NCBI GenBank assembly: GCA_002792635.1
Contig: PFOR01000024.1
Span: 1 to 50,647 of the forward strand
DNA length: 50,647 nucleotides
Source of the DNA: Candidatus Pacearchaeota archaeon CG_4_10_14_0_2_um_filter_35_33
GTDB taxonomy: Archaea; Nanobdellota; Nanobdellia; Pacearchaeales; GW2011-AR1
Direction of reading: 5' to 3'
Of this stretch, positions 10,674-46,924 are shown piece by piece (within the stretch, counting starts at the first letter, position 1; each line of letters opens with the position of its first letter). A program made the translations under genes and the position numbers. The notes beneath the pieces were generated by a model. The model did no database searches. It was not told the origin of the DNA and saw only the letters and a list, made by a program, of their open reading frames with translations.

Positions 10674-10794
10674 TTTAAGACTCCTAGAATCCTTTGACTG
10701 CTTCCATTTGCTTTAGCTCGGTGTGTGCAATTGGTTCTCGGCAGTGCTCAAGAACCAGACAGGTCATACACTAAAGTGTATGGTTCTCAACATA
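10674..10794 (+). repeat. Bipartite hairpin element A1
   Basis: Plus-oriented copy of the structured repeat family. Stem 1 pairs CCTAGAATCC with GGTTCTCGG around a 37-nt loop; a linker GCAGTGCTCA follows; stem 2 pairs AGAACC with GGTTCT and encloses the terminal hairpin CATACACTAAAGTGTATG; the copy ends AACATA. It shares the order of parts and long similar stretches with 33989-34110 and 46729-46924. The 3-prime end faces the dead deoxyribosyltransferase-like gene and supplies its last codons and stop. Confidence 0.7.
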
Positions 10795-11154
10795 ATCCAT
10801 TTCTATAGGGTTATTATAAAGAAATATTTTTTGATTCAAGACAAGGATGAAAACCATTTCGAGAACGGTGTGTGCACCAATATAGTTTTTAATTCTATTT
10901 TTGTCTAAATTTAAAACCAAAATAACTTTTCCTTTTTTCATTGTATGCTAATAGTTTCTTATAGCATCTATATTATTTTTTTGATGGAGTTTCATTTTTT
11001 CTTTTTCTTCATTAGTTTTTCCGGTCATTGGAGCCGCGAAAGACGCCATGTAAGCTTCAAGCCCTAATTTTTTTAGTTCTTCTACGATTCCTATTTGTTC
11101 TTCAGCAAATTGTATGCTTCCATAAATAGTTATGTCAAGGTTGCATTCAGCCAT
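10771..11154 (-). pseudogene. Decayed nucleoside 2-deoxyribosyltransferase-like gene between two hairpin elements
   Basis: One frame reads ITIYGSIQFAEEQIGIVEEL at the start, then an in-frame TAG (10948-10950) after AIRNY, then KGKVILVLNLDKNRIKNYIG, HTVLEM and a KIFLYNNPIEM strand in the same frame, ending VENHTL. This matches the deoxyribosyltransferase-like family (GS-x-F-A near the N-terminus, ILVLN, N-Y-I-G, L-E-M with the catalytic-type Glu kept). The TAG replaces a residue that is usually aromatic. The start codon region overlaps element B1 and the last seven codons come from element A1, so both gene ends were remade by the repeats. A readthrough role for TAG (pyrrolysine) has no support here. 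Confidence 0.65.
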
Positions 11155-11228
11155 GCACTAAAGTGCCTGGTTTCCTGTATCTGCAACCTTAAGCATCCAA
11201 AAGTTCAAACACGCAAGAACTTTTTGAT
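11130..11228 (-). repeat. Bipartite hairpin element B1
   Basis: Minus-oriented copy. On its own strand: stem 1 AAAAGTTC/GAACTTTT with a short loop, linker GGATGCTTAAG, stem 2 AAGGTTGCA/TGCAACCTT enclosing the terminal hairpin GCACTTTAGTGC, then end TTGACATAA. The layout equals that of the A copies while stem sequences differ and still pair. Its 3-prime end faces A1 across the dead gene. Confidence 0.7.
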
Positions 11229-11284
11229 ATTTATGTTTTTCTGGAGATGGAAAACTATAAATAAGCTTGTATTTTTGGTGAGTT

Positions 11285-11611
11285 ATGATACCAGGACTAG
11301 GTGGTATGAATCCTAAGAAGATGCAAGGCTTGATGAAGCAGATGGGCATCAATCAAGATGAAATTGAGGCTGATAGAGTTGTGATTGAGAAAGGAGATGG
11401 AAACATTGTTATTGAAAATCCGAAGGTTATGAAAATTACAATGCAAGGCCAGGAATCCTTTCAAGTTACAGGAGATATTAAGGAGGAGGAAGGATTCAAT
11501 GAAGGAGATGTTAAGATGATAATGGAAAAAACTGGCAAATCAGAAGATGAAGCTAAGAAGGCATTGGAGGAAACAAGTGATATTGCTGAGGCAATTGTCA
11601 AGTTAAGTTAA
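11285..11611 (+). CDS. nac: Nascent polypeptide-associated complex protein (NAC alpha type)
   Basis: 108 residues. N-terminal MIPGLGGMNPKKMQGLMKQM is the typical archaeal NAC start; residues about 30-72 form the NAC beta-barrel (VIEKGDGNIVIENPKVMKI, ESFQVTGD), and residues 75-108 a UBA domain (DVKMIMEKTGKSEDEAKKAL). It binds emerging chains at the ribosome exit as a homodimer. A TATA-like CTATAAATA is centred 26 bp upstream, giving a leaderless message. The aminopeptidase gene follows after 1 nt, which fits co-expression of nascent-chain and peptide-processing functions. Confidence 0.95.
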   Translation: MIPGLGGMNPKKMQGLMKQMGINQDEIEADRVVIEKGDGNIVIENPKVMKITMQGQESFQVTGDIKEEEGFNEGDVKMIMEKTGKSEDEAKKALEETSDIAEAIVKLS

Positions 11612-11612
11612 G

Positions 11613-12812
11613 ATGTATGTTCCTGATGAAACAATTTTGAATAGATATGCAGACGTTTTGATTAATTTTGCTCTGAATTCTGGAGAAGGCATTAAGCCTG
11701 GAGAAACAGTTTATCTGCAGGTTCCAGAGAATGCGAAACCTTTATTGATTGCTTTGAGGAAAGCTGTTTGGAAATCAAAAGGGCATATGATTGTTGATTA
11801 TTTACCAGATAACGTTGCCAGAGATTTTTATGAAGTTGCTGATGATTCACAGTTGGATTTTTTTCCGGGAAAGTATTTGAAAGGGATTGTTGATGAGATG
11901 GATCATGCGGTTATGATAATTGCCGATACGGATAAGAAAGAATTGGAGGGTATAAAACCTGAGAGAATTATGAGGAAGAGCAAGGCTTTCAAGCCTTACA
12001 AGGATTGGAGAAGAGATAAGGAGAATAGGGGAGAATTTACATGGACTTTGGCTTTGTATGGTACTGAGGCAAGTGCTAAAGAAGCCGGATTGTCTTTGGA
12101 AGAGTATTGGAATGAGATTATTAAAGCCTGTTTTTTGGATGAGGATGATCCTGTTGGCAAATGGAAATCAGTTTATGATGAAGTTGAGAGGATTAGACAT
12201 GCTTTGACAAATTTGGCTATTGAGAAATTGAAAGTTAGGGGACAAGGGATTGATTTAATAGTTGGATTAGGAGAGAATAGGTGTTGGTTGGGGGGAAGTG
12301 GAAGGAATATCCCTAGTTTCGAGGTATTTATTAGTCCAGATGCTAGAATTACGGAGGGAAAGGTTAGATTTAACCAGCCTTTGTACCGATATGGGAATAT
12401 CGTCAAAGGGATTAGATTAGAGTTTAAAGATGGGAAAGTTGTAAAGGCGGAGGCAGATTCAGGCCTGGAAGTTTTGGAAGAGATGATAAAAGTTGAAGGA
12501 GCTAACAAAATAGGAGAATTTTCCTTGACTGATGCAAGATTGTCAAGAATTACTAAGTTTATGGCTGAAACTTTGTTCGATGAAAATATTGGGGGAGAAT
12601 TTGGGAATATGCATATTGCCTTAGGAGAAGCATATAAAGATTCATATCCAGGAGACGCCTCAAAAGTTAGCAAGGAACAATGGAACGAAATGGGGTATAA
12701 CGAGAGTGTTGTGCATACAGACATGGTTTCTACAGAGGATAAAGAGGTTATTGCTGTTTTGAAAGATGGGAGCGAAAAGGTGATTTATAAGTCTGGAAAG
12801 TTCTTAATTTGA
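11613..12812 (+). CDS. M29 family metal-dependent aminopeptidase
   Basis: 399 residues, as in AmpS/AmpT-like M29 enzymes. Metal-ligand and catalytic landmarks of the family are present: GRNIPSFEVFISPD (Glu), GNMHIALGEAY (His), and VVHTDMVS (His-x-Asp) near the C-terminus. The N-terminal half contains the opening YADVLINFALNSGEGIKPGE typical of these proteins. It removes N-terminal residues from peptides in the cytoplasm. It sits 1 nt after NAC and is probably in the same transcript. Confidence 0.88.
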   Translation: MYVPDETILNRYADVLINFALNSGEGIKPGETVYLQVPENAKPLLIALRKAVWKSKGHMIVDYLPDNVARDFYEVADDSQLDFFPGKYLKGIVDEMDHAVMIIADTDKKELEGIKPERIMRKSKAFKPYKDWRRDKENRGEFTWTLALYGTEASAKEAGLSLEEYWNEIIKACFLDEDDPVGKWKSVYDEVERIRHALTNLAIEKLKVRGQGIDLIVGLGENRCWLGGSGRNIPSFEVFISPDARITEGKVRFNQPLYRYGNIVKGIRLEFKDGKVVKAEADSGLEVLEEMIKVEGANKIGEFSLTDARLSRITKFMAETLFDENIGGEFGNMHIALGEAYKDSYPGDASKVSKEQWNEMGYNESVVHTDMVSTEDKEVIAVLKDGSEKVIYKSGKFLI

Positions 12813-12908
12813 TTAGAATCTCTTGAAAAGTGATAACGGTAAATTTAGAAAGGTATAAATAGTAAATTTTCTTGATGTTTAGTGCTTCTGTAAGGGGTAA
12901 GTTTGGTG

Positions 12909-13334
12909 ATGGATGACGTAATTAAGGAAAAAATTAGTGCAGACCACTTATTATACGTTAGCCTGAAGTATACAAAAACTTGCGATGTTATAATTAATTT
13001 GCTTCTTAGATGGAAAGTTATGGTTGAAAAGGCAATGGATGTTTTAATCGACAAGGCAAAAAAGAAGAAGAAATGGAAGCCCGTTCCTGATGCTCCGAGG
13101 GCAAAGGTAGTACAATTGAAGAAAATTTATGCTAAAGAAAAATTAGTTATCGAGGTTTTAGAGTTATATGAGATGTTTAGGGATTTAAATAAGCTTGAAA
13201 AAATCAGAGAAAGTGAATTTAGAAAAGGCGTCAACTTAAAAGTTAAATACAAAAATGATTTTGTTAATGTAAATCTTGATAAATTGAAAGAGTATGCTGA
13301 TTTGTTAGAAAGGTTTATAAGCTATCTCAGATAA
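12909..13334 (+). CDS. Conserved helical DPANN protein of unknown function
   Basis: About 141 residues from ATG 12909; TTG 12903 and GTG 12906 are alternatives. All-helical, highly charged, with DHLLYVSLKYTKTCDVI near the start, a lysine cluster (DKAKKKKKW), VPDAP, and a C-terminal helix ending DLLERFISYLR. I recall similar uncharacterised proteins in Woesearchaeota-type genomes, but no function is established; a HEPN-like helical fold is a guess. A TATA-like GGTATAAATA near 12852 would give a leader of about 27 nt. It precedes minD by 34 nt in the same direction. Confidence 0.7.
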   Translation: MDDVIKEKISADHLLYVSLKYTKTCDVIINLLLRWKVMVEKAMDVLIDKAKKKKKWKPVPDAPRAKVVQLKKIYAKEKLVIEVLELYEMFRDLNKLEKIRESEFRKGVNLKVKYKNDFVNVNLDKLKEYADLLERFISYLR

Positions 13335-13368
13335 TTCTCTTTTACTTACCTTCGTAAGTTTAGTAAAA

Positions 13369-14121
13369 ATGGCGAGATTAATTGCAGTAATTTCAGGTAA
13401 AGGCGGAGTCGGGAAGACAACAACCACTATAAATCTAGGTGCTGCTTTAAATGAATTTGGAAGAGATGTCATAATTGCGGATGCTAATTTAACCACACCT
13501 AATTTGGGCTTACATATAGGCGTTCCTATTGTTCCTGTGAGCTTGAATCATGTTTTATCTGGAAAGGCAAAGATAGGAGATGCTATTTATGAGCACGACT
13601 CTGGAACAAAAATAATGCCTGGCTCTTTATCAGTTAAAGAATTGAAGAAGATAGATCATTTTAAACTAAAGGAAGTAGGGAAGAAATTGAGGAAAATGGT
13701 TGATGACTTTGTTATTTATGATGGTGCTTCAGGGTTAGGGGATGAGGCATTAGGAAGCATAGAGGCTGCTGATGATATAATTGTTGTTACGAATCCTGAG
13801 ATTCCTGCCGTTACAGATGCTTTAAAGACAATAAAATTTGTTGAGGAGCTTGGAAAAGAGGTTAAGGGTGTTATAATTACGAGAACGAGGGGAAATAAGA
13901 GCGAGATGAGTGTTGCGAATATTTATGATATTTTAGAAACTCCTATCCTGGGTGTTATTCCTGAAGACAGGAATATGCAGGGTGCTTTGTCAAAAAAGGA
14001 TGCTTTGATTCATTTACATCCTAATTCAAGAGCAGCAATAGCTTACAAGAAGATTGCTGCTAAAATGGCTGGTGTTAAATATCATGAACCAGGTTTATTG
14101 GCGAGGATGTTTAGTCATTAA
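13369..14121 (+). CDS. minD: MinD/ParA-type P-loop ATPase
   Basis: 250 residues. Deviant Walker A KGGVGKT at residues 11-17, switch region DANLTTPNLGLHIG, Walker B-like DDFVIYDGASGLGDEAL, and the base-recognition-like stretch VVTNPEIPAVTDALK. Members dimerise on ATP binding and position or load partners at membranes or on DNA. A C-terminal region GLLARMFSH is short and weakly amphipathic, consistent with a small membrane-targeting tip. No MinC/MinE is adjacent, as usual in archaea. It overlaps the convergent gene at 14118 by 4 nt. Confidence 0.9.
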   Translation: MARLIAVISGKGGVGKTTTTINLGAALNEFGRDVIIADANLTTPNLGLHIGVPIVPVSLNHVLSGKAKIGDAIYEHDSGTKIMPGSLSVKELKKIDHFKLKEVGKKLRKMVDDFVIYDGASGLGDEALGSIEAADDIIVVTNPEIPAVTDALKTIKFVEELGKEVKGVIITRTRGNKSEMSVANIYDILETPILGVIPEDRNMQGALSKKDALIHLHPNSRAAIAYKKIAAKMAGVKYHEPGLLARMFSH

Positions 14122-14447
14122 CTAATTTTGCTTCCTTCAGGCATAGGTTTTTCAGGTTGAAGGATTACTACTTTGTCTTCATTGGATGCTGCCAGAATCA
14201 TGCCCTGACTTTCTATTCCTCTAAGTGTTACAGGCGCTAAATTAGTTATGAAGATTGCTTGCTTACCTTGAAGTTCTTCTTTAGTGTAGTGTTGTTTTAA
14301 GCCTGCTACAATTGTTCTGGTCTCATTTCCTAGATTGATTGTTAGGACATAGAGTCTGTCTGCGTCTGGATGGTCTTCTACTTTTTCTATTGTACCAACT
14401 TTCATTTCCAGTTTTTGGAAGTCTTTGAAGGGTATCTGTTCTGTCAT
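14118..14447 (-). CDS. tRNA-binding domain protein (MetRS beta / EMAPII-like OB fold)
   Basis: 109 residues. The OB fold carries the family pattern LEMKVGTIEKVEDHPDADRL, then TIVAGLKQHYTKEELQGKQ and LRGIESQGMILAA. In many archaea this domain is separate from or fused to the C-terminus of methionyl-tRNA synthetase and raises tRNA affinity. Here it is a stand-alone gene downstream of metG; an SDR remnant lies between, and the ATGA overlap with that remnant is still present. Probably translated from the metG transcript. Confidence 0.9.
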   Translation of the reverse strand: MTEQIPFKDFQKLEMKVGTIEKVEDHPDADRLYVLTINLGNETRTIVAGLKQHYTKEELQGKQAIFITNLAPVTLRGIESQGMILAASNEDKVVILQPEKPMPEGSKIS

Positions 14448-14620
14448 TCTACGTTTTCTTCCCCATCTACAAGAATAGTAGACCCATTGATGAATTCGTT
14501 TTCAGTTAAAAATATTGCTGTGTTGGCTGTTTACTTCTAAGTTTCTTTTATTAGGGAGCTTATTTTTTCTTCCTTTAGGGTTAATTTTTTGAACTCTTCA
14601 AATTTGTGTTAAAGATTCAT
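14444..14620 (-). pseudogene. Remnant of a short-chain dehydrogenase gene between metG and the tRNA-binding gene
   Basis: The last 27 codons read ANTAIFLTENEFINGSTILV then DGEENVE, the classic C-terminus of SDR oxidoreductases (FL-x-x-x-x-F-I-N-G-x-x-I-x-V-D-G). The same frame upstream reads FEEFKKLTLKEEKISSLIKE but carries TAG and TAA just before ANTAIF and a further TAA near its start. The catalytic YxxxK and Rossmann parts are gone. The remnant still starts with an ATG overlapping the metG stop (ATGA) and ends with a TGA overlapping the next ATG, so operon geometry outlived the gene. Confidence 0.6.
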
Positions 14621-16068
14621 TTTATCTTTTGAAAGAGTATTGGGGATTTTTTAATTTTTATGGTCTTTAGGGGTTTTTCTAACTCATCAAGGGAGATTTT
14701 GAATCCGAATGTTTTAGCTATTCTTTCTGATGTTTCCGGTATGAATGGGAAGAGGAGAATTGTAGTGGCTTTGATATTGTTTGTAGCTTCGTACAATACT
14801 CTTTTGTCTTTTGTTTCCCATGGTTTTTTGTCTTGTAAGAATTGATTTGTGTTGTCTATATATGCAAATATTGAATTTAGCGCTTTGTCTAGCTCATAAT
14901 TTTCCATATATCTCTTAACCTCAGCATAGGTTTGTTTTATACAATGGAAATCCATGTCTGATTTTTCAATTCCATATTTTTCTGCTAATGCTGAAACTCT
15001 GCTGACTAAGTTGCCGAGCTTGTTTGCTAATTCATTATTATGACGCTGTATTAATGATTTCTCTGAGAAGTTTCCGTCTTCTCCTGATGCGAATGGAAAT
15101 TGTCTCAACGAAAAATATCTTATTGTATCTGCACCATATTTATCTACCAACTGCTGTACTGAGATTGCGTTTCCTAAAGATTTTGATATTTTTTTTCCGT
15201 TGAATGAGAGAAAACCATGATTGAATGTTGTCCTTGGTAATTTAAGTCCTGCCGATTTTAGCATTGCAGGCCAATAGACCGTGTGAAACCACGTATTGTC
15301 TTTTCCCAAAACATGGAGGTCCGCAGGCCAGTATTTTTGTTTTCCTTGTTGTTTTGTTGCAGTGTAATAATTGATGAGGGCGTCAAACCAGACATAAATT
15401 ACATGATTATTATCTAGTGGAAACGGGATGCCCCAGTCAAAAGAGGTTCTTGTGATACTAAAATCCTTTAATTCTTTTTTTACTTTACTTATAACTTCAT
15501 TTCTTCTTTGTTTAGGCAGTATGAATTCAGGGTGATTTTTGTATAAGTTGAGCAAATATTTCTGGTATTTTGAGAGTTTGAAGAAATAAGATTCTTCTTT
15601 TAGTTTTTCAAGAGGTCTTTGATGGACTGGACATACTAAATCAAAAGCGTCTTTTTCAGTATAGTAAGCTTCACAACCTGTGCAGTAGTATCCTTCATAT
15701 TCACCTTTGTATATGTCACCGGATTTATCACATTTTTTTATGAATTCTTCTACTACTTTTTTATGGTCTTCATCTGTTGTTCTGATGAATCTATCGTATT
15801 TAATGTTTAGAGATTTCCATGCTTCTTTGAATTTTTTTGATATCTCGTCCACAAACGCTTTTGGTTTTTTTTCTGCCTTTTCTGCAGATTCTGCAACTTT
15901 TTTTCCATGTTCATCTGTTCCAGTAATAAAAAAGACGTCAACACCTAGTAACTTATTCCATCTTGCTAGGGTGTCAGCTACAATTTTCTGATATGCATGG
16001 CCTATATGGGGTTCTGCATTGACATAATCTATTGCAGTAGTGATGTAAAATTTCTTTGCCATATCCAA
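14617..16068 (-). CDS. metG: Methionyl-tRNA synthetase (catalytic subunit)
   Basis: 483 residues. HIGH motif at about 21-24 (AEPHIGHAY), a zinc knuckle region YYCTGCEAYY and CPVHQRP, WFDALINYYTAT, WFHTVYWPAML, and the KMSKS motif as KKISKSLGN near residues 293-297. The chain ends after the anticodon-binding helical bundle and lacks the fused C-terminal tRNA-binding domain, which is supplied by the gene at 14118-14447. Starts MDMAKKFYITTAIDYVNAEP; the Met at position 3 is an alternative start. Confidence 0.95.
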   Translation of the reverse strand: MDMAKKFYITTAIDYVNAEPHIGHAYQKIVADTLARWNKLLGVDVFFITGTDEHGKKVAESAEKAEKKPKAFVDEISKKFKEAWKSLNIKYDRFIRTTDEDHKKVVEEFIKKCDKSGDIYKGEYEGYYCTGCEAYYTEKDAFDLVCPVHQRPLEKLKEESYFFKLSKYQKYLLNLYKNHPEFILPKQRRNEVISKVKKELKDFSITRTSFDWGIPFPLDNNHVIYVWFDALINYYTATKQQGKQKYWPADLHVLGKDNTWFHTVYWPAMLKSAGLKLPRTTFNHGFLSFNGKKISKSLGNAISVQQLVDKYGADTIRYFSLRQFPFASGEDGNFSEKSLIQRHNNELANKLGNLVSRVSALAEKYGIEKSDMDFHCIKQTYAEVKRYMENYELDKALNSIFAYIDNTNQFLQDKKPWETKDKRVLYEATNNIKATTILLFPFIPETSERIAKTFGFKISLDELEKPLKTIKIKKSPILFQKIK

Positions 16069-16102
16069 TAAAAAAATAGAGAATATATAAGGTTAACTGA
16101 TT

Positions 16103-16459
16103 CTAGAAAGTCATTTGTTCAATATGGCTGTCTATATAATCTGCGAGGCCATCCCTTTTTTGTCTATCACGTAATTCTCTTGTTTTCTTTATTTTTTTTG
16201 ATTTGTCATAGACATCTCTCCAGTTGATTAAACCGGGTTTAACATGGCTTGTCATTCTGAAGGCTTCATATCTTGTTCCGGCGACATTCCCCTGGGTAAT
16301 TGTTGATGGGCCTTCTGAAACCATATCTAATTGTGTTTGGAGTCTTTGCTTAATGTCTCCTATCATCTGGTTGTCTCCGATTACTAGAAATAGGTATTCA
16401 TGATTCTCTGGATAATTTCTGGATTTGACGTTCCATCTTATTCCTCTTGGGTTTTCCAT
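16103..16459 (-). CDS. Hypothetical protein, 118 residues
   Basis: Begins MENPRGIRWNVKSRNYPENH, has a short hydrophobic strand EYLFLVIGD, then an Arg/Lys-rich helical C-terminal half (SKKIKKTRELRDRQKRDGL). No family is recognised. It ends 35 nt upstream of metG on the same strand. The divergent gene at 16536 lies across an AT-rich gap with TATA-like boxes. Composition matches neighbours. Confidence 0.5.
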   Translation of the reverse strand: MENPRGIRWNVKSRNYPENHEYLFLVIGDNQMIGDIKQRLQTQLDMVSEGPSTITQGNVAGTRYEAFRMTSHVKPGLINWRDVYDKSKKIKKTRELRDRQKRDGLADYIDSHIEQMTF

Positions 16460-17054: not shown

Positions 17055-17087
17055 TTTTTATTAAGTTGTTTTCTGAATCTTTTTAAT

Positions 17088-21705: not shown

Positions 21706-21706
21706 T

Positions 21707-30670: not shown

Positions 30671-31059
30671 GAGATAAGGGGCAATCAGCCTTAGAATTTG
30701 CGATTCTTATTGGAGCAGTTATTTTTCTTTTTGTTTTGTTTGTTTTTGGAATAAGTAGCAATATAACTGGTAAGGCTATTGAGAGAAGGAATATAATTGT
30801 AGAGGATATAGCTGGTTCTGTGAGGGATGAAATAAATCTAGCTTCTGTTTCTAGCGATGGGTATTATAGAGAATTCACTTTGCCAGGGAAGGCACTTAAT
30901 CAGGAATATGATATGATGATAGATGGGTCTGTGTTATATATTGAGTTGCCTGATGGAGGCTATGGTTTGTCAATTCCTGTCTCAAATGTTATTGGTCAGC
31001 CTGCCCCTGGAACGAATATTATTAAAAAGATTGATGGTGTTGTATACTTGAACGAATGA
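30667..31059 (+). CDS. Class III signal peptide pilin paralogue
   Basis: 130 residues, TTG start overlapping the preceding stop. The leader KGQSALEFAILIGAVIF and the following domain are paralogous to the first 130 residues of the next gene; two nucleotide blocks (41 and 68 bp) are identical between them while flanks differ. The domain carries DEINLASVSSDGYYREFTLP. The simple form lacks the adhesin extension. Overlaps the next ATG by 4 nt. Confidence 0.8.
   Translation: MRDKGQSALEFAILIGAVIFLFVLFVFGISSNITGKAIERRNIIVEDIAGSVRDEINLASVSSDGYYREFTLPGKALNQEYDMMIDGSVLYIELPDGGYGLSIPVSNVIGQPAPGTNIIKKIDGVVYLNE
30825..30892 (+). repeat. 68-bp block identical to 31232-31299
   Basis: Begins GGATGAAATAAATCTAGC and ends CCAGGGAAGG; identical in both neighbouring pilin genes. 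A second 41-bp identical block lies at 30679-30719 and 31086-31126. The sequence between blocks has diverged at the protein level, which suggests gene conversion. Confidence 0.9.
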
Positions 31060-32999
31060 TGAAAAGGATATATGAAATTAAAAGAGGGCAATCAGCCTTA
31101 GAATTTGCGATTCTTATTGGAGCAGTCCTTTTTTTCGTTGCTGGATTTATATTTGCTGTTCAGAACAATATCTCTGATAGAAATAGGGAGAGAAGACAGA
31201 TTCTTATTGAGGAAATTGCTTCTTTAATACAGGATGAAATAAATCTAGCTTCTGTTTCTAGCGATGGGTATTATAGAGAATTCACTTTGCCAGGGAAGGT
31301 TTTAGGACTCGATTATATTGCAACTCTTGATTCCAGAACTGTTTATGTTCATACTGTCAATGAACTTTATACAACTGTGTTGCCAATTCAATCAGTTGTG
31401 GGAGATATTGAAGTCGGTGGAGTGAATATGGTTTCTAAAGTGGAAGATAATATATGTTTGAATTCTGAGATTGTTGTTTGTTCGAGTTGTGGGAATGGAA
31501 ATTTAGAAAGTTTTGAGGTTTGTGATGGAGAACTTTTCGATAAAGAATATACTTGTGGAGAGTCGGGAGAAAGTGAATTATTTAATTTTGGGGAAGTTAC
31601 TTGTGGAAACAATTGTGAGTTAGATACTGCCTTGTGTTCTTATTGCGGGAATGGAAAGACAGAGGGATTGGAAGTTTGTGATGGAGATGTTGGTGTTTTA
31701 TGTGAAGGGGGGGGAGCAATTCCATTATTTAAGGATTGTCTATCTACCTGTGATGGATGGGGGACGTGTAATCCATTCCATAATGGTCCGCCTCTGCCTG
31801 CTTGTGATAATGGAATTGATGATGACGGAGATGGTTTTGTTGATTGGGACGGGGTGAATGGAGTTTATGAGTTGCCTTATGATCCTTATAGCGATGATGA
31901 TAAGGAATGTGAGGATGCTGATGATGATAATGAAATGGAAGGAAGAGATCCATTCATTTATGTATGTAATGACGGGTATAATAATGACGGAGACCCATAC
32001 ATTGATTTTATAGGGGGACCACAAGGAGAGGACCCGGATCCTGAATGTGCTTATCCATATGATTTAACAGGCGAGAGTATTGAGGGAACGCCATATTCAT
32101 ATGATTGTAGCAATGGAATTGATGATGATGGAGATGGATTTATAGATTGGGGGGAAGACCCACAATGCATTAGTTATTATGATTTGAGCGAACATTCAGG
32201 AACATTCCCTGAAGATTTCCAGTGTATGGATGGAGTTGACAATGATGGTGATAATTTGATTGATTGGCCTGCAGATCCTGAATGTGCTTATAGGTATGAT
32301 GATGAAAGTTCAGGAATTGGGTATGAAACAGGATTGGGTGGGGGTTTGGTGGCACATTATCTGTTTGACGGAACAAGTTTAAATGAGAAGCTGGCAGATG
32401 AGTCTGGAGAAAATAATGAGAGTATTGTAGGAAGTGCTGATTGTAATCAAACAGGAATTTCAGGAACTGCTTGTGGGTTTTTAGGTGTTGGTAATTATGT
32501 CAATGTTCCAAATAATAATGAGTTCAATCTGCCTAATAATTATGGAGAGGGTCTATCTGTAACCATATGGATTAAAACAAGTGCTAATGTTGTTAATGGG
32601 CTTGTTGATAAATCAGAAGGAAATGAGAGATATGGTATATGGTTATCAAAGGCTGATGATAAATGTGGGGTTTCTATTAAGGACGCAGAAGGGGATGAAT
32701 TGACATATTCAGGAGGAGGAGATGTTGTTGATGGTACCTGGCACATGTGTGCATTTACGGCGGTTAGAAGCAATCCGGCAAATCCTGATGAACTTTATGT
32801 TAAATTATATTCTGATGGGCAAATGGTTCAAGATTATCTAGTTACCAATATTGGAGATATTTCTCCCAATGGTGATTTCAAGATGGGCGTTTTGCTTGGA
32901 GGAGCAGGAACAGCAAATATTATTGATGAAGTTAGGGTTTATGGCAAGGCAGTCTCTAATCAGGATATTTTGGATATTTATGATTCTTTGACAGGATAA
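31056..32999 (+). CDS. Pilin-adhesin fusion with Cys-rich, DxDGDG and LamG-like domains
   Basis: 647 residues. Residues 9-35 are a class III pilin helix (KRGQSALEFAILIGAVLFF); to about 130 it matches the preceding pilin. Residues about 138-225 are Cys-rich, DUF4215-like (CGNGNLESFEVCDG, CGNGKTEGLEVCDG). Then four repeats of the type C-x-N/D-G-x-D-D-D-G-D-G-x-x-D (for example CDNGIDDDGDGFVDW, CSNGIDDDGDGFIDWGEDP), a calcium-binding pattern. Residues about 425-640 form a concanavalin/LamG-like lectin domain (GLVAHYLFDGTSLNE, GTWHMCAFTAV, IIDEVRVYGKAVS). Likely displayed at a filament tip or cell surface to bind glycans or partner cells. Confidence 0.82.
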   Translation: MMKRIYEIKRGQSALEFAILIGAVLFFVAGFIFAVQNNISDRNRERRQILIEEIASLIQDEINLASVSSDGYYREFTLPGKVLGLDYIATLDSRTVYVHTVNELYTTVLPIQSVVGDIEVGGVNMVSKVEDNICLNSEIVVCSSCGNGNLESFEVCDGELFDKEYTCGESGESELFNFGEVTCGNNCELDTALCSYCGNGKTEGLEVCDGDVGVLCEGGGAIPLFKDCLSTCDGWGTCNPFHNGPPLPACDNGIDDDGDGFVDWDGVNGVYELPYDPYSDDDKECEDADDDNEMEGRDPFIYVCNDGYNNDGDPYIDFIGGPQGEDPDPECAYPYDLTGESIEGTPYSYDCSNGIDDDGDGFIDWGEDPQCISYYDLSEHSGTFPEDFQCMDGVDNDGDNLIDWPADPECAYRYDDESSGIGYETGLGGGLVAHYLFDGTSLNEKLADESGENNESIVGSADCNQTGISGTACGFLGVGNYVNVPNNNEFNLPNNYGEGLSVTIWIKTSANVVNGLVDKSEGNERYGIWLSKADDKCGVSIKDAEGDELTYSGGGDVVDGTWHMCAFTAVRSNPANPDELYVKLYSDGQMVQDYLVTNIGDISPNGDFKMGVLLGGAGTANIIDEVRVYGKAVSNQDILDIYDSLTG

Positions 33000-33875: not shown

Positions 33876-34067
33876 GTGAATTTTGTCAAGACGTTTCCGT
33901 TCTTGTTCTTTTTATTGGTTGGTATTGGGATGGTTGTCGCGATTAGTGTTGATGAAGGGGATAATAAAGCTAAGACAGATTATAGTAAATTAAGACTCCG
34001 AGAACCCTTTGACTTTACCCCTCCTGCTTTAGTTAGGTGTGTGCGATTTGTTCTCGGTAGTGCTTAA
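33876..34067 (+). CDS. Small single-pass membrane protein ending inside hairpin element A2
   Basis: 63 residues from GTG 33876. A TATA-like TTATTTAAA is centred 26 bp upstream, fitting a leaderless message and this start. One transmembrane helix (FPFLFFLLVGIGMVVAISV) is followed by a charged segment (DEGDNKAKTDYSKL). From about residue 39 the codons come from element A2, so the last ~25 residues (LREPFDFTPPALVR and following) are repeat-derived and the original C-terminus was probably different. No family is recognised. Confidence 0.5.
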   Translation: MNFVKTFPFLFFLLVGIGMVVAISVDEGDNKAKTDYSKLRLREPFDFTPPALVRCVRFVLGSA

Positions 34068-34110
34068 GAACAAGATACCTCATATACTTTAGTGTATGGT
34101 TCTTGACATA
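33989..34110 (+). repeat. Bipartite hairpin element A2
   Basis: Plus-oriented copy. Stem 1 CCGAGAAC/GTTCTCGG is perfect; the loop holds TTTACCCCTCCTGCTTTAGT; linker TAGTGCTTAAG; stem 2 TTAAGAAC/GTTCTTGA encloses the terminal hairpin CATATACTTTAGTGTATG; end TTGACATA. It differs from A3 at about 3 of 63 compared central positions. It faces element B2 across the glycosyltransferase gene. Confidence 0.75.
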
Positions 34111-34167
34111 CAATCCAGGCGTGAGGGACTATTCTGAAAGTAGTCTAAGAGGCATTTATAGTTTTGA

Positions 34168-35334
34168 TTAGGTTTTTATGAGTTTTCTTTCTTCCTTCAC
34201 ATATTGTTTAGCAACATTAGGCCATCTCATTTGTTCTGTGAATGGAGCCATGTTAGCTTTCATTTGTTCTAATTTTTTCGGGTTATCTAGAACATCCAAT
34301 AAGGTATCAGTTATTGCGTCGGAATTATCTAATTCTGGGAGAATAATACCTCTTCCATCGGCTAGAACTTCTTGAGCGTAGAGGAAGGGAGTGGAAATTA
34401 CAGGAACACCTAGACCAAGATAATAACTCAAGACTCCTGATGAGATTTGACCTACATTTGAATAAGGTGTAATGCCTAAATCTGATGCCCTAATGTTCCT
34501 TAATAGACTGTTTAATGGAAGGTAATGATTTGTGAATCTTATATTATCTTCAAGACCTAATCTTCTCGTTTCTTCTTGAAGCATTTTTCTGTAAGGGTCA
34601 TTTCCATTAATAAGTTCTTTGGGATGTGTTTTACCTGCTATATGGTATAACATGTGTGGATGTTTTTTTACTACATCAGGTAATGCGTGAATAACTTTTT
34701 CCATTCCTCTTTTGGGTCTTACCAAACCAACTGTGGAAATAACAAATCTGTCTTCAAGATTCCCTATTATTTTTTTGGCTTCATCGCGTGATTCGCTGAA
34801 ATCATGCGTTCCATGATATATTTTGCTTATTTTTTCTGGTTTTATCTTATATTCAGTCTGTAGTATATTTGTGGCTGTCTGTGAAATTGCCATGATGCTT
34901 GTTACTCTCGGAAGAATTCTGCTTAGTACTTCTCTTCTTTCTCTTGACTTTCTGTCTGTTTCTTGTTGTCTTGGAACTGTGTGACAAGTTAAAAGAGATG
35001 GTTTTTTAAGTCTGTCTAAAAATTCTATTAAATAGTCCCCTTGGTTTCCTCCAAAGATTCCAAATTCGTGCTGGATGCTCACTAAATCTGTGCCTTCATC
35101 GCTATTAAGAAATTCTGCAGCGTCAATGTAATCCTCTATTCTTTCTTTTTCTATGCAGAAATCTACAAAATCTGGATATTCTTCAGGTCTTCTGGAAACA
35201 TTCATTGCTACAACTCTGTTTATTAAATAAGGATCTTCATGAATTGAATAATCTATTACGTCTTGTGTCCACGAGGCAATACCACATTCTTCAGGTTTGA
35301 ATGTGCTAACATGAACTACTTTCTTTTGATTCAT
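34168..35334 (-). CDS. GT4-type glycosyltransferase between hairpin elements A2 and B2
   Basis: 388 residues with a GT-B fold. N-terminal half: VVHVSTFKPEECGIASWTQD and VSIQHEFGIFGG; C-terminal half: STVGLVRPKRGMEKVIHAL, YHIAGKTHPKELI, and the donor-binding region LGLGVPVISTPFLYAQEVL in place of the usual E-x(7)-E core. Likely transfers a sugar from an activated donor during glycan or glycolipid synthesis; acceptor unknown. A TATA-like box (35355-35362) is centred 25 bp upstream of the ATG. It is the only gene between facing elements A2 and B2. Confidence 0.85.
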   Translation of the reverse strand: MNQKKVVHVSTFKPEECGIASWTQDVIDYSIHEDPYLINRVVAMNVSRRPEEYPDFVDFCIEKERIEDYIDAAEFLNSDEGTDLVSIQHEFGIFGGNQGDYLIEFLDRLKKPSLLTCHTVPRQQETDRKSRERREVLSRILPRVTSIMAISQTATNILQTEYKIKPEKISKIYHGTHDFSESRDEAKKIIGNLEDRFVISTVGLVRPKRGMEKVIHALPDVVKKHPHMLYHIAGKTHPKELINGNDPYRKMLQEETRRLGLEDNIRFTNHYLPLNSLLRNIRASDLGITPYSNVGQISSGVLSYYLGLGVPVISTPFLYAQEVLADGRGIILPELDNSDAITDTLLDVLDNPKKLEQMKANMAPFTEQMRWPNVAKQYVKEERKLIKT

Positions 35335-35371
35335 TAGTTTGTTTTTAAGAGAGAGTATATAAGTTTTCTTG

Positions 35372-35451
35372 TTATGTCAAGGTTGCTTGAGCATCCAAAA
35401 GTTCAAACAAACCTCACACTTTAATGGGGTAAAACACAAGAACTTTTTGAT
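35372..35451 (-). repeat. Bipartite hairpin element B2
   Basis: Minus-oriented copy, identical to B3 at 79 of 80 positions. On its own strand: stem 1 AAAAGTTC/GAACTTTT with inner pairing of ACCCC and GAGGT, linker GGATGC, short stem TCAAG/CTTGA, end ACATAA. The terminal CACTTTAGTG hairpin seen in B1 is absent. It lies upstream of the glycosyltransferase promoter, so it is not in that leaderless mRNA. Confidence 0.75.
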
Positions 35452-41382: not shown

Positions 41383-41990
41383 GATTGATAATTGTTAGGC
41401 ATGCGCAGACGACACTTAACAGGGATGGGATTATACAGGGAGTTAGCAGTGGCGATTTAACTGATAAAGGGAAGAAACAGGCAGAGTTGTTGGCGAAAAG
41501 ATTGATGAAAGAGAAGGTAGATGTGGTTTATTCTTCAGATTATAAAAGATGCAAGGATACTCTCAACCCCTTTTTAAAGATGAAGAAGGTTCCTGTTCAT
41601 TTTGTCGAGGAATTGAGAGAGAGGAACTATGGAATCATGGATGGGAAATCCGGAGAAGAATATGACAAATGGAAACAGGATAAAGATTGGACTAACTTTG
41701 ATTTTAGGATGTCCGGAGGAGAGTCGTATAATGATGTTTTAAAGAGAGTCAAGAAATTTTTAGATGTTCTTTTAAAGAAAGAAAATGGGAAAACTGTCTT
41801 GATTATGGCTCATGGAGGAACTAAAAGGGCGATATTAATGAATTTGTTTGAAGAGAAAAATAGAGATTATTATAAGAAAACATCCGGGCAGATATCCAAA
41901 AATACGGCGATGACTATTATCGGTTTAGAAAAAAAAGGGGGATGGAAAGCAGATTCTTGGTATTCTGTTGAACATTTGGAGGACTTATGA
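41379..41990 (+). CDS. Histidine phosphatase (phosphoglycerate mutase-like)
   Basis: 203 residues. Catalytic LIIVRHAQTTLNRDG with the phospho-accepting His (about residue 8), the second Arg in VVYSSDYKRCKDTL, acid LRERNYGIMDGKSGEEY and the second His in VLIMAHGGTKRAIL. Hydrolyses a phosphomonoester, e.g. sugar phosphate or nucleotide; cofactor-dependent mutase function is less likely given the context of a kinase, a HAD and a Nudix. Overlaps both neighbours by 4 nt. Confidence 0.9.
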   Translation: MRLIIVRHAQTTLNRDGIIQGVSSGDLTDKGKKQAELLAKRLMKEKVDVVYSSDYKRCKDTLNPFLKMKKVPVHFVEELRERNYGIMDGKSGEEYDKWKQDKDWTNFDFRMSGGESYNDVLKRVKKFLDVLLKKENGKTVLIMAHGGTKRAILMNLFEEKNRDYYKKTSGQISKNTAMTIIGLEKKGGWKADSWYSVEHLEDL

Positions 41991-42421
41991 AATTTGTCAG
42001 AAATAGCGAGAAAAAAAAGTTGTTGAAAGACATGGAAATGTATGGAATAAAGAAGTTGCCATATCTTTTGTTGGAAGCAGGCAAGGAAAAAGTTAGGGGG
42101 TTTAGTGGGACTATGAATAAGGAAGAGTTTGCTGAACTAGAGGAAATTGCAAGAGTTGAGATTGTTGGCCTTTATTTGATTAGGAAAGAGAAAGGCGGAT
42201 TAAGGTTAGGATTGGATGGAAGTATGATGTTAAAACCATCAAGAAATGTGATTGAAATTGATGCAATTAATGAATGGATGAAAGGTCATGATTTAGAGGT
42301 TAAAGGAAATAATGGGCTTTATGCTGTTAAACATAGGGGTGATTTTTTAGGATGTGGCGCTTTGAAAGATGGGAAACTAATTAATTATATTCCAAAAGAA
42401 AGAAGGATTAGGCTGAACTAG
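41987..42421 (+). CDS. PUA-like protein related to NOL1/NOP2/Sun C-terminal domain
   Basis: 144 residues. The C-terminal part DFLGCGALKDGKLINYIPKE with RRIRLN matches the PUA-type domain associated with NOL1/NOP2/Fmu methyltransferases (G-D-x-L-G-x-G...N-x-x-P-K-x-x-R). N-terminal region about 1-60 is helical. Last gene of the operon that starts with an NSUN methyltransferase; may guide RNA binding in trans for it. Ends 14 nt inside the convergent gene at 42408. Confidence 0.7.
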   Translation: MKFVRNSEKKKLLKDMEMYGIKKLPYLLLEAGKEKVRGFSGTMNKEEFAELEEIARVEIVGLYLIRKEKGGLRLGLDGSMMLKPSRNVIEIDAINEWMKGHDLEVKGNNGLYAVKHRGDFLGCGALKDGKLINYIPKERRIRLN

Positions 42422-42623
42422 GTCTGTCATAGTCCATGTCATCGTCGTTCATTAATTCTTTGAATGTTAGTGGTCCTAAAGGGCCATGGGCATCTGGGGT
42501 GGGTCTTATTTGTGGTTGTGATAGGTTTTCGGAAACTTCTTGGTTGTTTAAATAAGAGTTTTCGAAGGGTGTAGGGAATACAGGATTTCCAATTTCTTCG
42601 TTGAGGTAATATTCTATTTCCAT
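42408..42623 (-). CDS. Small acidic hypothetical protein, 71 residues
   Basis: Begins MEIEYYLNEEIGNPVFPTPF and ends with a Pro/Asp-rich tail (FKELMNDDDMDYDRPSSA); likely disordered. It starts 1 nt after the stop of the upstream gene at 42625 and its 3-prime end overlaps the PUA gene by 14 nt. No family is recognised. Confidence 0.45.
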   Translation of the reverse strand: MEIEYYLNEEIGNPVFPTPFENSYLNNQEVSENLSQPQIRPTPDAHGPLGPLTFKELMNDDDMDYDRPSSA

Positions 42624-42624
42624 T

Positions 42625-42861
42625 TTATTTCATATCTTTGAAGATGTTATTCTCATTTAATATTTCTTCTGTTAGTTTATCTGCTATTTGCTCGACAGTA
42701 TCCTTCACATATTGAGGTAATTCATAACCCTTTTCTTCAAATCTGTAAGCTTGAGCCATGTAGGAAGAGCCAGGAAAGTTTCCTGATTCTAACATTTCTG
42801 TTCTTTCCGCCCAGAATCTGTCAACTTCTTCCTGGGCCATCCTTTTTTCTTCATATACCAT
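42625..42861 (-). CDS. Small acidic helical hypothetical protein, 78 residues
   Basis: Begins MVYEEKRMAQEEVDRFWAER and is rich in Glu; ends in a helix KLTEEILNENNIFKDMK. Divergent from map with AT boxes in the 50-bp gap. Paired with 42408-42623 as a two-gene unit. No family is recognised. Confidence 0.5.
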   Translation of the reverse strand: MVYEEKRMAQEEVDRFWAERTEMLESGNFPGSSYMAQAYRFEEKGYELPQYVKDTVEQIADKLTEEILNENNIFKDMK

Positions 42862-42911
42862 ACAACTTCTTTCCGAAAAAGGTTTTTAAAGGTTTGTTTT
42901 TAGTAAATTAA

Positions 42912-43787
42912 ATGAATGAGGAGAAAATCATTAAGGCTGGAAAAATAGCGAAGGAAGTCGTGGATTATGCTAAGTCTATTATTGAGCCTGGTATGAAGTT
43001 GATAGATATTGCTAATAAGATTGATGATAAGATATTAGAATTAGGGGGGAAACCAGCGTTTCCTGTTAATTTGTCTATAAATGAGGTTGCAGCTCACTCA
43101 ACGCCGGCTCATGATTCAGATGAAATTGCTAAGGGATTGCTAAAAGTAGATATTGGAGTGCATGTAGATGGGTGGTGCGCGGATACTGCATTTTCATTAG
43201 ATTTAGATGATGATTCAGAAAATAAAGAGTTAATTAAGAGTGCAGAGGCTGCTTTGAAGAAAGCCTTGGATTTTATTGAGAAAGGAGTTGAAGCCAGAGA
43301 GATTGGGGCGATTATAGGTGATGAATTGAGAGCAAGAAAAGTTGGACCAGTTATTAATCTTTCAGGACATTCAATAGATAGATATGACTTACATTCTGGA
43401 ATAACAATTCCTAATGTTGATAATGGAAATGATGCTGTCCTTGATTCTGGATTGTATGCGATAGAACCTTTCGCAACTAATGGATTAGGGAAAGTAAGAG
43501 ATGGAAAACCTTCTGGAATATATCAATTACAAGGAGAAGGAAATGTCAGAGATATTTTTTCTCGGGAAGTGTTGAAATTTATTAAAGAAGAGTATCAGAC
43601 ATTGCCTTTTTGTTCTCGCTGGATTCATAAGAAGTTTGGATCTAGAGGGTTGTTAGCATTAAGAATGATTAAGCAAGCTGGATTGTTGCATGAATATGCT
43701 CAGCTAATTGAGTCTGGAAATGGAAAAGTAGCACAAGCAGAACATAGTATCTTGATTGGAAAGGATGTAATCGTGACTACAGAATAA
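42912..43787 (+). CDS. map: Methionine aminopeptidase, type II
   Basis: 291 residues, the usual length for archaeal type 2. Metal-binding residues are visible: Asp in VDIGVHVDGWCADTAFSLDL, His in LSGHSIDRYDLHSG, Glu in LYAIEPFATNG and the final Glu in QAEHSILIGKDVIVTTE. The His/thr pocket VNLSINEVAAHSTPA is present. Removes the initiator Met cotranslationally. TATA-like TTTTTAAAGG is centred about 25 bp upstream of the ATG. Confidence 0.95.
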   Translation: MNEEKIIKAGKIAKEVVDYAKSIIEPGMKLIDIANKIDDKILELGGKPAFPVNLSINEVAAHSTPAHDSDEIAKGLLKVDIGVHVDGWCADTAFSLDLDDDSENKELIKSAEAALKKALDFIEKGVEAREIGAIIGDELRARKVGPVINLSGHSIDRYDLHSGITIPNVDNGNDAVLDSGLYAIEPFATNGLGKVRDGKPSGIYQLQGEGNVRDIFSREVLKFIKEEYQTLPFCSRWIHKKFGSRGLLALRMIKQAGLLHEYAQLIESGNGKVAQAEHSILIGKDVIVTTE

Positions 43788-43816
43788 TTTTTAAAGTATG
43801 TTTTATTGCTTTAAGA

Positions 43817-46678
43817 GTGGAAAAGAGGAATGTTTTTATTGCGATTGTTCTTGCGTTAATTATTTTAGTTGGTCTTTCAATGGTGTTCGTGTTCATCTCG
43901 AGTTATATTTCATTTAAGTCCGATAATCAGGAGAATACAGAGGAAGATGAGAGAGTTACAATTGCAGAGTTATGTGGTAGTTTGGAATTGGAGCCTTTTT
44001 CATGTTTTATTGATGATGGAAGCGTGGAAGTGTCAACAACTCGGAAAATTGGAGAGGATTTGAAAGGCGTGGAATTTAAATTTACTTCCTTAGGAAATGA
44101 AGACAAGGTTTTAACAGATAAAGATGCATCCAAAAATTTTCTTTCGGGGAATGTTATCATTAATATGCTTGGGTTTATTTTTAAGCCAGTTTTGTTTATT
44201 ATTAATCTTTTAATTCCAGGTAATTTATATTTCAGTCCACCTGCTCAAAGTTTTGATTTCACTGGAAATGCTATTGCAGACATAGGAGAAGGAGATAGTG
44301 TAGATGTTGCAGGAATTGTTGATGGTGGAGCTTGTGATTATTCTGGGAAAAGCGTTGAATGTGTTTTAAGAGAAGAGCCAAATGGAGGAAATGGTGGCGG
44401 TGGAGGTGGAGGCGGTGGAGGAGGCGGTGGAGGTGGAGGCGGTGGAGGAGGCGGGGGAGGAGAAGACGGAGGTGGAGGCGGTGGAGGAGGTGATGGAGGA
44501 GGAAGTGGAGGAGAAGAGTGTGGAAATGGAATTTTAGAAAGTGGTGAGCAGTGTGATGATGGTAATTTAATTAACGGAGATGGTTGTAATAGTGTTTGTG
44601 AAATAGAAATCGTTTCACAGGCAAATGAGTGTAATGATGGAGAAGATAATGATGGAGATGGCTTAATTGATTTTGAAGATGATGGTGGAAGTGCAGGAGT
44701 CTTTATGGGTTGCTATGGTCCTAACGGACAGGAAAGTCTTGTAGATTATGGCTGGACTATGCTTGATGCTTCTAGTGATTCTAAAATAATCTATGTTTCA
44801 TCTTCTTCTGGAGATGATAGTTGGAGCGGTTTGTCAGGTGAGTGGAATGGAACAGATGGTCCTGTAAAGACAATTGCTCATGGTTATAGTAACTTAAGTG
44901 AAAATAGCCCTGATTGGCTTTTGTTGAAGAGGGGAGATGTTTGGAATGATGAAAGGATTGAAAGGGAAAAGCCTCTTCCTTATAGTCCTTCTAGACCTGA
45001 TAAGAGTGGCAGAGGGTATGATGAGCCATTAGTTATTTCTTCTTATGGAGATTCACCCTATAGACCTTTAATTACTAATTATTCTGGGAGTGTTTTTAGT
45101 GTTAGGGATATTAACAAGAATATCGACTTTGTTGTTTTGAAGGGTTTGGAAGTTTATAACTCCAAAAAAGACCCCAATTCTAACGATTTTAATGCAGGAG
45201 GGGGGATGTTTATAGATAGGCTTAGCCCAGGAAAGATGTTTTTAGTGGAGGATTGCAAGTCTATTTATGCGGGGAATCAAATAAGTGCTGGAGTGGTGAA
45301 GAATTTTACCCTTAGAAGGTCCATAATTGAGAAATCATATAGTGCAGATGAAGGGCATGCACAGGGTATTTTTATAGATGATGCAAGGGGGGTTTTGTTA
45401 GAAGAGAATGTGTTTGACCATAATGGATGGAATGAAGAGTTTGAATATCTGCTTTATGTTGTGCAGAATGATTCTGCTGCCTGGGGAACAGTAAAGGATG
45501 GACAATTTAGGATTTGGATTAATGGTGATTATTCCGAGGTTGATGGATTAGATTTTACTTCTGTTAGTAGTATGAATGATGTTGCCCAGGTTATTGAAGA
45601 TTCTTTAGATGCTTTGTTTCCAAATAATAATATTAATGTTGGTTGGCATTTTGGTGTAATGAAGTTTAGTTCTGATTTTAATACTCATCCGAAAGTTATT
45701 GATATAAAAGATTTACAGACTAGTCAAGTTGGAGGGGGCACAGATATCAGCACTGATGCTTGGTTGGATGGAAGTAGTGGTATATCACCCGATGCTACAC
45801 AATTTAATCACAATGTCTATATTACATCTGACACAAGGGATGTTGTTGCGAGAGGAAATATTATTGCTAGACCTTCTGCTTCTGGAATACAAGCAAGACC
45901 TGGAGGAATTATAGAGGATAACTTTATTTTTCAGGCAATAAGCAATCATGTTGGGAGAACCTCTAGTACGCCTGTTCCAGGAGGGATTAATGGCACATGG
46001 AAGAATAATGTTGTTTTGAATGCTACTTTTACTTCTGGAACAGATTCAAGAGGTGGAATTGGTCTTGAAACTGCCCATACTAACAATTTTGTTGTTGAAG
46101 GAAATATAGTTGCAAATTCTGAAGTTAAGGATATAGGGCTTGAGTTAAGCGGACCACATGATGGACATAAAAATACTACTGTGAGAAATAACATAGTCTA
46201 TGGGGCAGGTATTCCTCTTGGCACATGTTGTTATGAGGCAGATTATAATTATACTGATAAAACTGTTTTTGTGCATGATAATGTGTTTGAACGAAGATAT
46301 CTTGATGCAACCAACGACAAGAATAGAGTTGTTCAGATGAAACATAGTACTGATGATTACTCAGCACACTTTGTGTTTAGGGATAATAGGTATTGGGATG
46401 TGTTTCCTGATGCGTGGTTTTATATTGGGAAATTTAATAAGGCAATGACTTTTGATGACTGGTTAGCTCACGTTGACGATGTAGGGAGTGTTAATGAAAC
46501 TACTTCTTTTGTAGACCCGGATAGGGGTATAGAGAGCTATCATGTTTTCCTTGGAGAGGATGCAAGTAGTGACTCTTTCTTTGCCATAGCTAAAGAACAA
46601 TCTGCTTTCAATTGGAATTCTAATTATACTGCACATGAAATTAATGAGTATATCAGAGAAGGATTCCAGAAAGCTTAG
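43817..46678 (+). CDS. Large surface protein with polyglycine stalk and beta-helix
   Basis: 953 residues from GTG 43817, supported by TTTTTAAAG centred 25 bp upstream. Residues 7-30 are a membrane anchor (VFIAIVLALIILVGLSMVFV); a second hydrophobic stretch lies near 115-135. Residues about 188-235 are almost pure Gly. Then DUF4215 (CGNGILESGEQCDDGN) and a calcium-binding CNDGEDNDGDGLIDF repeat like those of the 31056 adhesin. From about 330 a right-handed beta-helix begins (IIYVSSSSGDDSWSGL), with rungs such as VEDCKSIYAGNQ and VEGNIVANSEV. A separate domain (about 550-655, FRIWINGDYSEVDGLDF) interrupts it. Likely glycan-binding or -processing at the cell surface. Confidence 0.85.
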   Translation: MEKRNVFIAIVLALIILVGLSMVFVFISSYISFKSDNQENTEEDERVTIAELCGSLELEPFSCFIDDGSVEVSTTRKIGEDLKGVEFKFTSLGNEDKVLTDKDASKNFLSGNVIINMLGFIFKPVLFIINLLIPGNLYFSPPAQSFDFTGNAIADIGEGDSVDVAGIVDGGACDYSGKSVECVLREEPNGGNGGGGGGGGGGGGGGGGGGGGGGGEDGGGGGGGGDGGGSGGEECGNGILESGEQCDDGNLINGDGCNSVCEIEIVSQANECNDGEDNDGDGLIDFEDDGGSAGVFMGCYGPNGQESLVDYGWTMLDASSDSKIIYVSSSSGDDSWSGLSGEWNGTDGPVKTIAHGYSNLSENSPDWLLLKRGDVWNDERIEREKPLPYSPSRPDKSGRGYDEPLVISSYGDSPYRPLITNYSGSVFSVRDINKNIDFVVLKGLEVYNSKKDPNSNDFNAGGGMFIDRLSPGKMFLVEDCKSIYAGNQISAGVVKNFTLRRSIIEKSYSADEGHAQGIFIDDARGVLLEENVFDHNGWNEEFEYLLYVVQNDSAAWGTVKDGQFRIWINGDYSEVDGLDFTSVSSMNDVAQVIEDSLDALFPNNNINVGWHFGVMKFSSDFNTHPKVIDIKDLQTSQVGGGTDISTDAWLDGSSGISPDATQFNHNVYITSDTRDVVARGNIIARPSASGIQARPGGIIEDNFIFQAISNHVGRTSSTPVPGGINGTWKNNVVLNATFTSGTDSRGGIGLETAHTNNFVVEGNIVANSEVKDIGLELSGPHDGHKNTTVRNNIVYGAGIPLGTCCYEADYNYTDKTVFVHDNVFERRYLDATNDKNRVVQMKHSTDDYSAHFVFRDNRYWDVFPDAWFYIGKFNKAMTFDDWLAHVDDVGSVNETTSFVDPDRGIESYHVFLGEDASSDSFFAIAKEQSAFNWNSNYTAHEINEYIREGFQKA
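44380..44512 (+). repeat. G-rich GGN repeat tract
   Basis: About 130 bp of GGN codons (GGTGGAGGCGGTGGAGGAGG style) encoding the polyglycine stalk, in an otherwise AT-rich region. The plus strand contains many runs of two to five G and may form G-quadruplexes; length is likely to vary between strains by slippage. Confidence 0.9.
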
Positions 46679-46728
46679 ACCCCCTGAAAAATCCTTTTTT
46701 AGTTGATATAGAAGCCCTCCTCTAAGGA

Positions 46729-46924
46729 ATTAAGAATCAGAGAATCCTTTAACCTTACCCCTCCTACTTTAGTTAGGTGTGTGCGATTTGTTCTCGGCAG
46801 TGCTTAAGAACCAGATATGCCATACACATTATTATGTCAAGGTTGCTTGAGCATCCAAAAGTTCAAACAAACCCCACACTTTAATGGGGTAAAACACAAG
46901 AACTTTTTGATATGGCTCTTGACA
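46729..46924 (+). repeat. Bipartite hairpin element A3, interrupted by B3
   Basis: Plus-oriented copy. Stem 1 AGAATC/GTTCTC region, linker CAGTGCTTAAG, stem 2 5-prime half TTAAGAACC; the terminal hairpin starts CATACAC, then B3 (46832-46911) intervenes, then ATGGCTCTTGACA restores the 3-prime half of stem 2. Lies in the 314-bp gap between the convergent surface-protein gene and cdc48; nothing else was found in that gap. Confidence 0.7.
46832..46911 (-). repeat. Bipartite hairpin element B3, nested in A3
   Basis: Minus-oriented 80-bp copy with one base different from B2 (C for T in the inner stem, making CCCC/GGGG fully paired). Sits exactly in the terminal hairpin loop of A3. No gene lies between A3 and B3. 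Confidence 0.75.

Follow-up and report, generated by a model that had tools for sequence, protein, structure and literature searches.

Short bipartite hairpin elements occur at three loci of contig PFOR01000024.1 (assembly GCA_002792635.1) of Candidatus Pacearchaeota archaeon CG_4_10_14_0_2_um_filter_35_33, which raises the question of what these elements are and how they move. The contig was analyzed at its full length of 50,647 nucleotides and is called the window below. An earlier note on this DNA had reported six hairpin elements; all of them are present, and their number is far beyond chance. Copy counts are based on BLASTN matches and retrieved sequence stretches; in the window genome (777 kb in 27 contigs, 89% complete) they give five copies of one family, A, and about 31 copies, with sharp ends, of another, B. 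A and B are two distinct families and not the single family that had been assumed, and since the families differ, the differences between A and B stems are not in themselves compensatory changes, as the note had taken them to be.

The element proper measures 51-122 bp and is non-coding; because it encodes no TnpA, it is non-autonomous and not an insertion sequence (IS). We think it likely that the B elements are PATE-like elements of the IS200/IS605 type, which a Y1 HUH TnpA would move in trans; for the A elements, the same reading is less certain. It draws on the multi-copy dispersal and on the sequences of the ends and of the target, whereas the enzyme, a TnpA from IS200 elements, is inferred.

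Insertion site and ends of the elements

When the flanks are joined after removal of an element, the reading frames of the interrupted genes close. The reading frame alone cannot separate CATA^A from C^ATAA, three bases earlier, and a first boundary estimate of CATA^A, made from joins of open reading frames (ORFs), was replaced by GAC^ATAA through protein comparison. In genome G024, a recent copy splits trpD, the gene for anthranilate phosphoribosyltransferase (L266, ~8035). In the joined TrpD, a gap of one residue appears at the junction if ATA is left out; with ATA, the Pfam score of the protein rises from 254 bits to 261.8. For genes of the window genome, the scores rise from 28.3 to 32.6 bits (NUDIX) and from 22.8 to 24.6 bits (Exo_endo_phos), with a small difference for LMWPc (28.0 to 28.4 bits). 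Because of these four protein comparisons, we assign the terminal ATAA to the target sequence of the host and not to the element. The end tag TTGACATA(A), which had been described as conserved, is conserved, but it is in part a target site, its last ATAA being assigned to the target. ATAA follows the copy in 29 of the 29 window-genome copies examined, in 22/22 copies from G024, and in 27 of 35 copies from other genomes.

Judging from homology to IS200 ends, the elements had been described on the opposite strand: their functional orientation is the reverse complement. In the functional orientation, insertion is directly 3' of TTAT, without target duplication. Turned around in this way, the full-length element reads TTAT^GTC..., followed by an outer stem around GCAGAAAACC-hairpin-GGATGAATGC and by the linker GCATCC; beyond the linker lie a second outer stem, around a CAAACC-hairpin, and the end ...TGAT^. 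The two hairpins have mostly CTTTAG-type loops. Subterminal hairpins are found at both ends of full-length copies, and shortened copies do not carry both, as judged from the folds and the covariation. The ends, GTCAAGG and TTTTTGAT, form no prominent terminal inverted repeats.

These properties bear on an origin as an ordinary miniature inverted-repeat transposable element of a DDE transposon. Such an element would likewise be small, non-coding, and multi-copy, and a DDE_Tnp_IS240-type fragment lies in the window at 9205-9798; however, DDE-type paired terminal inverted repeats are lacking, there is no target duplication, and the empty-site reconstructions contradict such an origin. Among the explanations weighed here, we consider this one the least probable.

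The IS200-type tnpA elements of related genomes have the left end GCAAGAAATCC-hairpin (CTTTAG loop)-GGATGAATTGC, which matches the left end of the elements in order and loop, with similar flanks. The right end resembles IS200 by guide/cleavage code and loop only. Insertion of IS608 takes place exactly 3' of TTAC, and a guide at the 5' foot of each hairpin pairs with a cleavage site (AAAG/TTAC and GAAT/TCAA, with A16 pairing with T-3 and A17 with T-4); the guide, which is part of the transposon DNA, determines the target, and a change in the guide can change the target (PMC5934647). We scored this code as guide1-site2, guide2-site1, and guide4-site4. It holds at the IS200 ends of the relatives, for example GAAG/TCAC, GATA/TCAT, GAAA/TCAT, AAAT/TTAA, and AACC/TTAG. 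The ends of the elements, AAAA/TTAT and CAAA/TGAT, each match at three of three positions, with the register set by eye. Over 12 distinct guide/cleavage pairs, in which a single copy supplied the reading for most of the IS200 right ends, 33 of the 36 scored positions match, and 0 of 100,000 re-pairings were as good. The guide/target code of IS608 would thereby predict cleavage and target sites in natural archaeal sequences, including those of a gene-less element.

The closest described kind are the PATEs (palindrome-associated transposable elements) of Haloquadratum walsbyi (PMC3119063); these IS605-type elements of haloarchaea, which consist of ends only, are closer than REP sequences. PATEs also have near-terminal palindromes related to IS605-type ends, no terminal inverted repeats, and no target duplication, and are too short to encode a transposase; versions as short as 52 bp have been described (PMC3119063). 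Unlike in PATEs, the end hairpins of our elements lie in long covarying outer stems joined by a conserved 6-nt linker, the hosts are DPANN archaea, and a parent IS with the same ends, from which they could have arisen by core deletion, did not turn up. With IS200/IS605 elements (IS608, ISDra2; PMC5934647) they share insertion 3' of a tetranucleotide without duplication, subterminal hairpins, and guide/cleavage pairing, whereas tnpA and tnpB are lacking, the address is their own (TTAT/TGAT), and the outer stems and the linker are additional. We regard the elements as a new, PATE-like family within a kind already described, with each end hairpin enclosed in a long covarying stem. Among the papers searched on DPANN archaea and IS200, none describes them, judging by title and abstract.

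Covariation, copies, and distribution

A covariance model of B, built from five window-genome copies and three relatives, matched 51 of 200 genomes of the order, in 31 of 104 genera and nearly all in one family, so the expectation that related genomes hold many further copies was borne out. The carriers include the Nanoarchaeota metagenome-assembled genome (MAG) E14_metabat.bin.43; genome G002, from the same genus as the window genome, had no match to the model. In the stretches of G024 examined there are 22 copies, most of them identical at about 116 of 118 positions, and GC skew around the G024 copies revealed no clear strand preference.

Covariation was measured in an alignment of 33 sequences, mostly one per genome, with 37 pairs. 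The cells are paired in 96.2% of cases, a fraction that falls to 28-46% when the partner is slid by one to three columns, and changes on both sides occur in 31 of the 37 pairs. Double-change cells number 269, against 77 in shuffles and 22-47 with a slid partner; none of 500 shuffles was as good as the real alignment. The alignment was fitted to the covariance model, which biases it towards the structure, but the effect is so large, and the slide controls differ so much, that the covariation is safe. The conserved fold with covarying stems that the earlier note had proposed is thus confirmed across genomes.

Could the fold be selected at the level of RNA, as in a regulatory or small RNA spread by recombination? 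The strong covariation and the conserved linker and loops would suit such an RNA. On the modelled strand, however, G·T mismatches are as rare across genomes as A·C mismatches (19 and 21 of 1176), so nothing indicates that selection acts on one RNA strand; among the window-genome copies, G·T outnumbers A·C (38 versus 16), but these copies share ancestry. The Rfam covariance models gave no match to the elements, on which ground a known RNA family was rejected. Copies also lie within genes in both orientations and are inserted precisely beside TTAT. A structured RNA is very improbable.

The B copies of the window genome are mostly ~90-98% identical to B2 and have four annotated lengths (55, 80-82, 99, and 124-126, ATAA included), set by which inner hairpins the two outer stems hold. 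A stem with an inner hairpin, which had been described as the shared layout, is found in some copies, but the inner hairpins are optional. Copies without one are probably deletion derivatives, and the window copies B1-B3 may be immobile.

Most B copies sit in ordinary genes or spacers. Since they interrupt genes, as in the case of trpD in G024, the elements would serve as genome markers. Some copies (L031 11420-11543, L033 4936-5059, L029 5504-5627, L151 1501-1615, and L168 1501-1612) are read through without a stop inside longer ORFs, and read-through copies have lengths that are multiples of three. They recall the Rickettsia palindromic elements (PMC3733652), some copies of which lie in frame inside ORFs and are read through; in contrast to those, most copies here break the frame, and the mechanism and ends are IS200-like.

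Proposed mechanism and source of the transposase

Under the IS200/IS605-type reading, the element would be excised and inserted as single-stranded DNA by the Y1 HUH TnpA of IS200 elements, acting in trans. The target address would lie in the guide of the element itself, which would let TTAT differ from the TTAA and TTAG of IS200 elements: since the guide of the transposon, rather than the protein, specifies the target of IS608, an enzyme whose own IS targets TTAA or TTAG could serve an element that brings its own guide. A gene-less element thus appears to have its own address and to borrow the enzyme. It is probable that the covarying outer stems keep the two end hairpins in a single compact fold. 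More speculatively, the GCATCC linker might hold the end hairpins closed until TnpA binds. Each of the two cleavage junctions is complementary to the linker, and the three pairs involved hardly vary; this would fit a lock or a scaffold and by itself proves neither. Tentatively, and with clearly less confidence than the IS200/IS605-type reading, one may picture a long-lived archaeal parasite with stems and GCATCC as a built-in lock, its own address, and a borrowed TnpA, an independent archaeal counterpart of REPINs.

Several observations weigh against this mechanism. The sole PF01797 match in the window genome, whose assembly is 89% complete as stated above, is an IS200-type TnpA with one in-frame stop. 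The association between tnpA (PF01797) and the elements among the 200 genomes is weak (27/51 carriers versus 52/149 non-carriers), probably in part through IS copies collapsing at contig ends; in G153, IS200 left ends lie at contig edges and tnpA is absent. No parent IS with TTAT/TGAT ends was present among the IS200 elements sampled. In many copies, including each of B1-B3, one of the canonical inner hairpins is missing, and a guide with it, yet the ends are precise. For the guide register, the four bases that precede the hairpin foot were chosen by eye, and an automatic longest-stem search for hairpin feet shifts the register in many copies. Finally, the guides and flank tetranucleotides of the A family (TTAT, GTAT, ACAT, ATTT, and GTTT) fit the code poorly.

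The interrupted TnpA is located at L044 3200-3630 (G000:C22), with the stop preceding the tyrosine-bearing segment. It is what a search for a TnpA or RAYT gene, suggested by the earlier note, brought up in the window genome; no RAYT-like gene was associated with the copies. No RAYT gene flanked by copies was seen, where only IS200-type TnpA was inspected and the MAGs are incomplete. In an all-against-all comparison of 845 ORFs near copies in many genomes, no gene family recurred and the only matches were element-derived or due to chance; a REPtron-like gene beside the elements was rejected on this basis.

The same results bear on the analogy, drawn in the earlier note, with REP/BIME sequences and RAYT enzymes, which would make the elements archaeal REPINs, whose palindromes depend for their movement on a domesticated Y1 protein of the RAYT type, present in a single copy, instead of on IS200 transposons. 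REP/BIME/REPIN-RAYT systems (PMC6006769) also comprise dispersed palindromes with conserved short motifs at the hairpin feet and an enzyme of the Y1 HUH superfamily, and the two hairpins are reminiscent of a REP doublet. What holds of the analogy is the HUH-Y1 guide/cleavage code at both ends. The feet, however, are AAAA and CAAA, with no GTAG or GTGG tag, the copies number about 30 and not hundreds, no RAYT gene or other recurring gene flanks them, the target is a fixed tetranucleotide, and the left-end hairpin matches IS200 elements. Furthermore, a survey of Y1 proteins met only subclass 1.1 IS200-type TnpA in Archaea (PMC6006769). We regard an archaeal REP/BIME as unlikely. In DPANN archaea, the scattered, covarying hairpins described here would fill the place that REP/REPIN sequences take in bacteria.

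The three loci in the window

The coordinates are compiled in Table 1; the boundaries of the A elements are less certain than those of the B elements. A1, A2, B1, and B2 are separate elements, as had been described. At the third locus, B3 is nested in the terminal hairpin of A3 and splits it, and excising B3 gives back an unbroken A3 terminal region.

Table 1. Elements and target tetranucleotides in the window, in the functional orientation.
Feature	Coordinates	Strand	Span of copy	Remarks
A1 element	10674-10791	-	~10674-10795	Second family, same bipartite layout; ATAA at 10792-10795 is TTAT on the opposite strand
B1 target TTAT	11130-11133	+		Host sequence, kept in left flank
B1 element	11134-11228	+	11130-11228	95 bp; left end GTCAAGG..., right end ...CTTTTTGAT; inner hairpin of the left-end stem reversed compared with other copies, none at the right end
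A2 element	33990-34107	-	~33990-34111	Minus-strand flank tetranucleotide GTAT
B2 target TTAT	35372-35375	+		
B2 element	35376-35451	+	35372-35451	76 bp; right-end inner hairpin kept, left-end inner hairpin missing
A3 element	46730-46923	-	~46730-46923	Parts 46730-46835 and 46912-46923
B3 target TTAT	46832-46835	+		
B3 element	46836-46911	+	46832-46911	76 bp; type as B2

Nesting is also seen in G153, where A-like bipartite elements of ~51 nt (CTTCAG...TGAGAGTGCTCAAG...CTTGACA) lie in the inner hairpin of B-type copies (L211 1484-1661 and L212 1260-1428), an insertion into palindromes. The SMR-A small mobile repeats of Haloquadratum (PMC3119063), ~110 bp in length, insert by an unknown mechanism into near-terminal IS605-type palindromes. 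They are similar to our elements in size, copy number, and the lack of a target duplication, and the positions of B3 in A3 and of the A-like elements in the two G153 copies would suit an SMR-A-like repeat. SMR-A, however, has strong terminal inverted repeats and prefers PATE or IS605 palindromes, whereas here such repeats are absent, B copies are mostly found in the genes and spacers mentioned above, and the ends carry the IS200-type code. An SMR-A-like element is improbable, a shade more so than a REP/BIME.

For four of the five A copies, a B copy lies within ~1.3 kb, the two converging in the orientation of the earlier note (10674-11228, 33990-35451, and 46730-46923 in the window, and L022 7951-9251). 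Between the neighbors there is an unrelated gene or nothing. Given ~31 B copies per 777 kb, this proximity looks non-random. The convergence of A and B around a glycosyltransferase gene (34168-35334) and other genes had prompted the idea of an A-cargo-B cassette, which was rejected: the genes that would be the cargoes bear no relation to one another, and the A and B elements are on opposite strands, whereas an IS200-type element needs both ends on one strand. A TnpB or omega-RNA between A2 and B2 was also rejected, as the ORF there is the glycosyltransferase.

The DDE_Tnp_IS240-type fragment is bracketed, together with an rRNA adenine dimethylase-like ORF, by a 25-nt inverted repeat (9172-9196 and 10419-10443, 96%), and an exact 84-nt tandem duplication (10225-10392) lies inside the same bracket. 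Further repeats in the window are a 214-nt direct repeat (30679-31299, 79%), a glycine-rich GGN tract in the 953-aa ORF (44375-44543), and a direct repeat of 203 nt (47618-48642, 72%).

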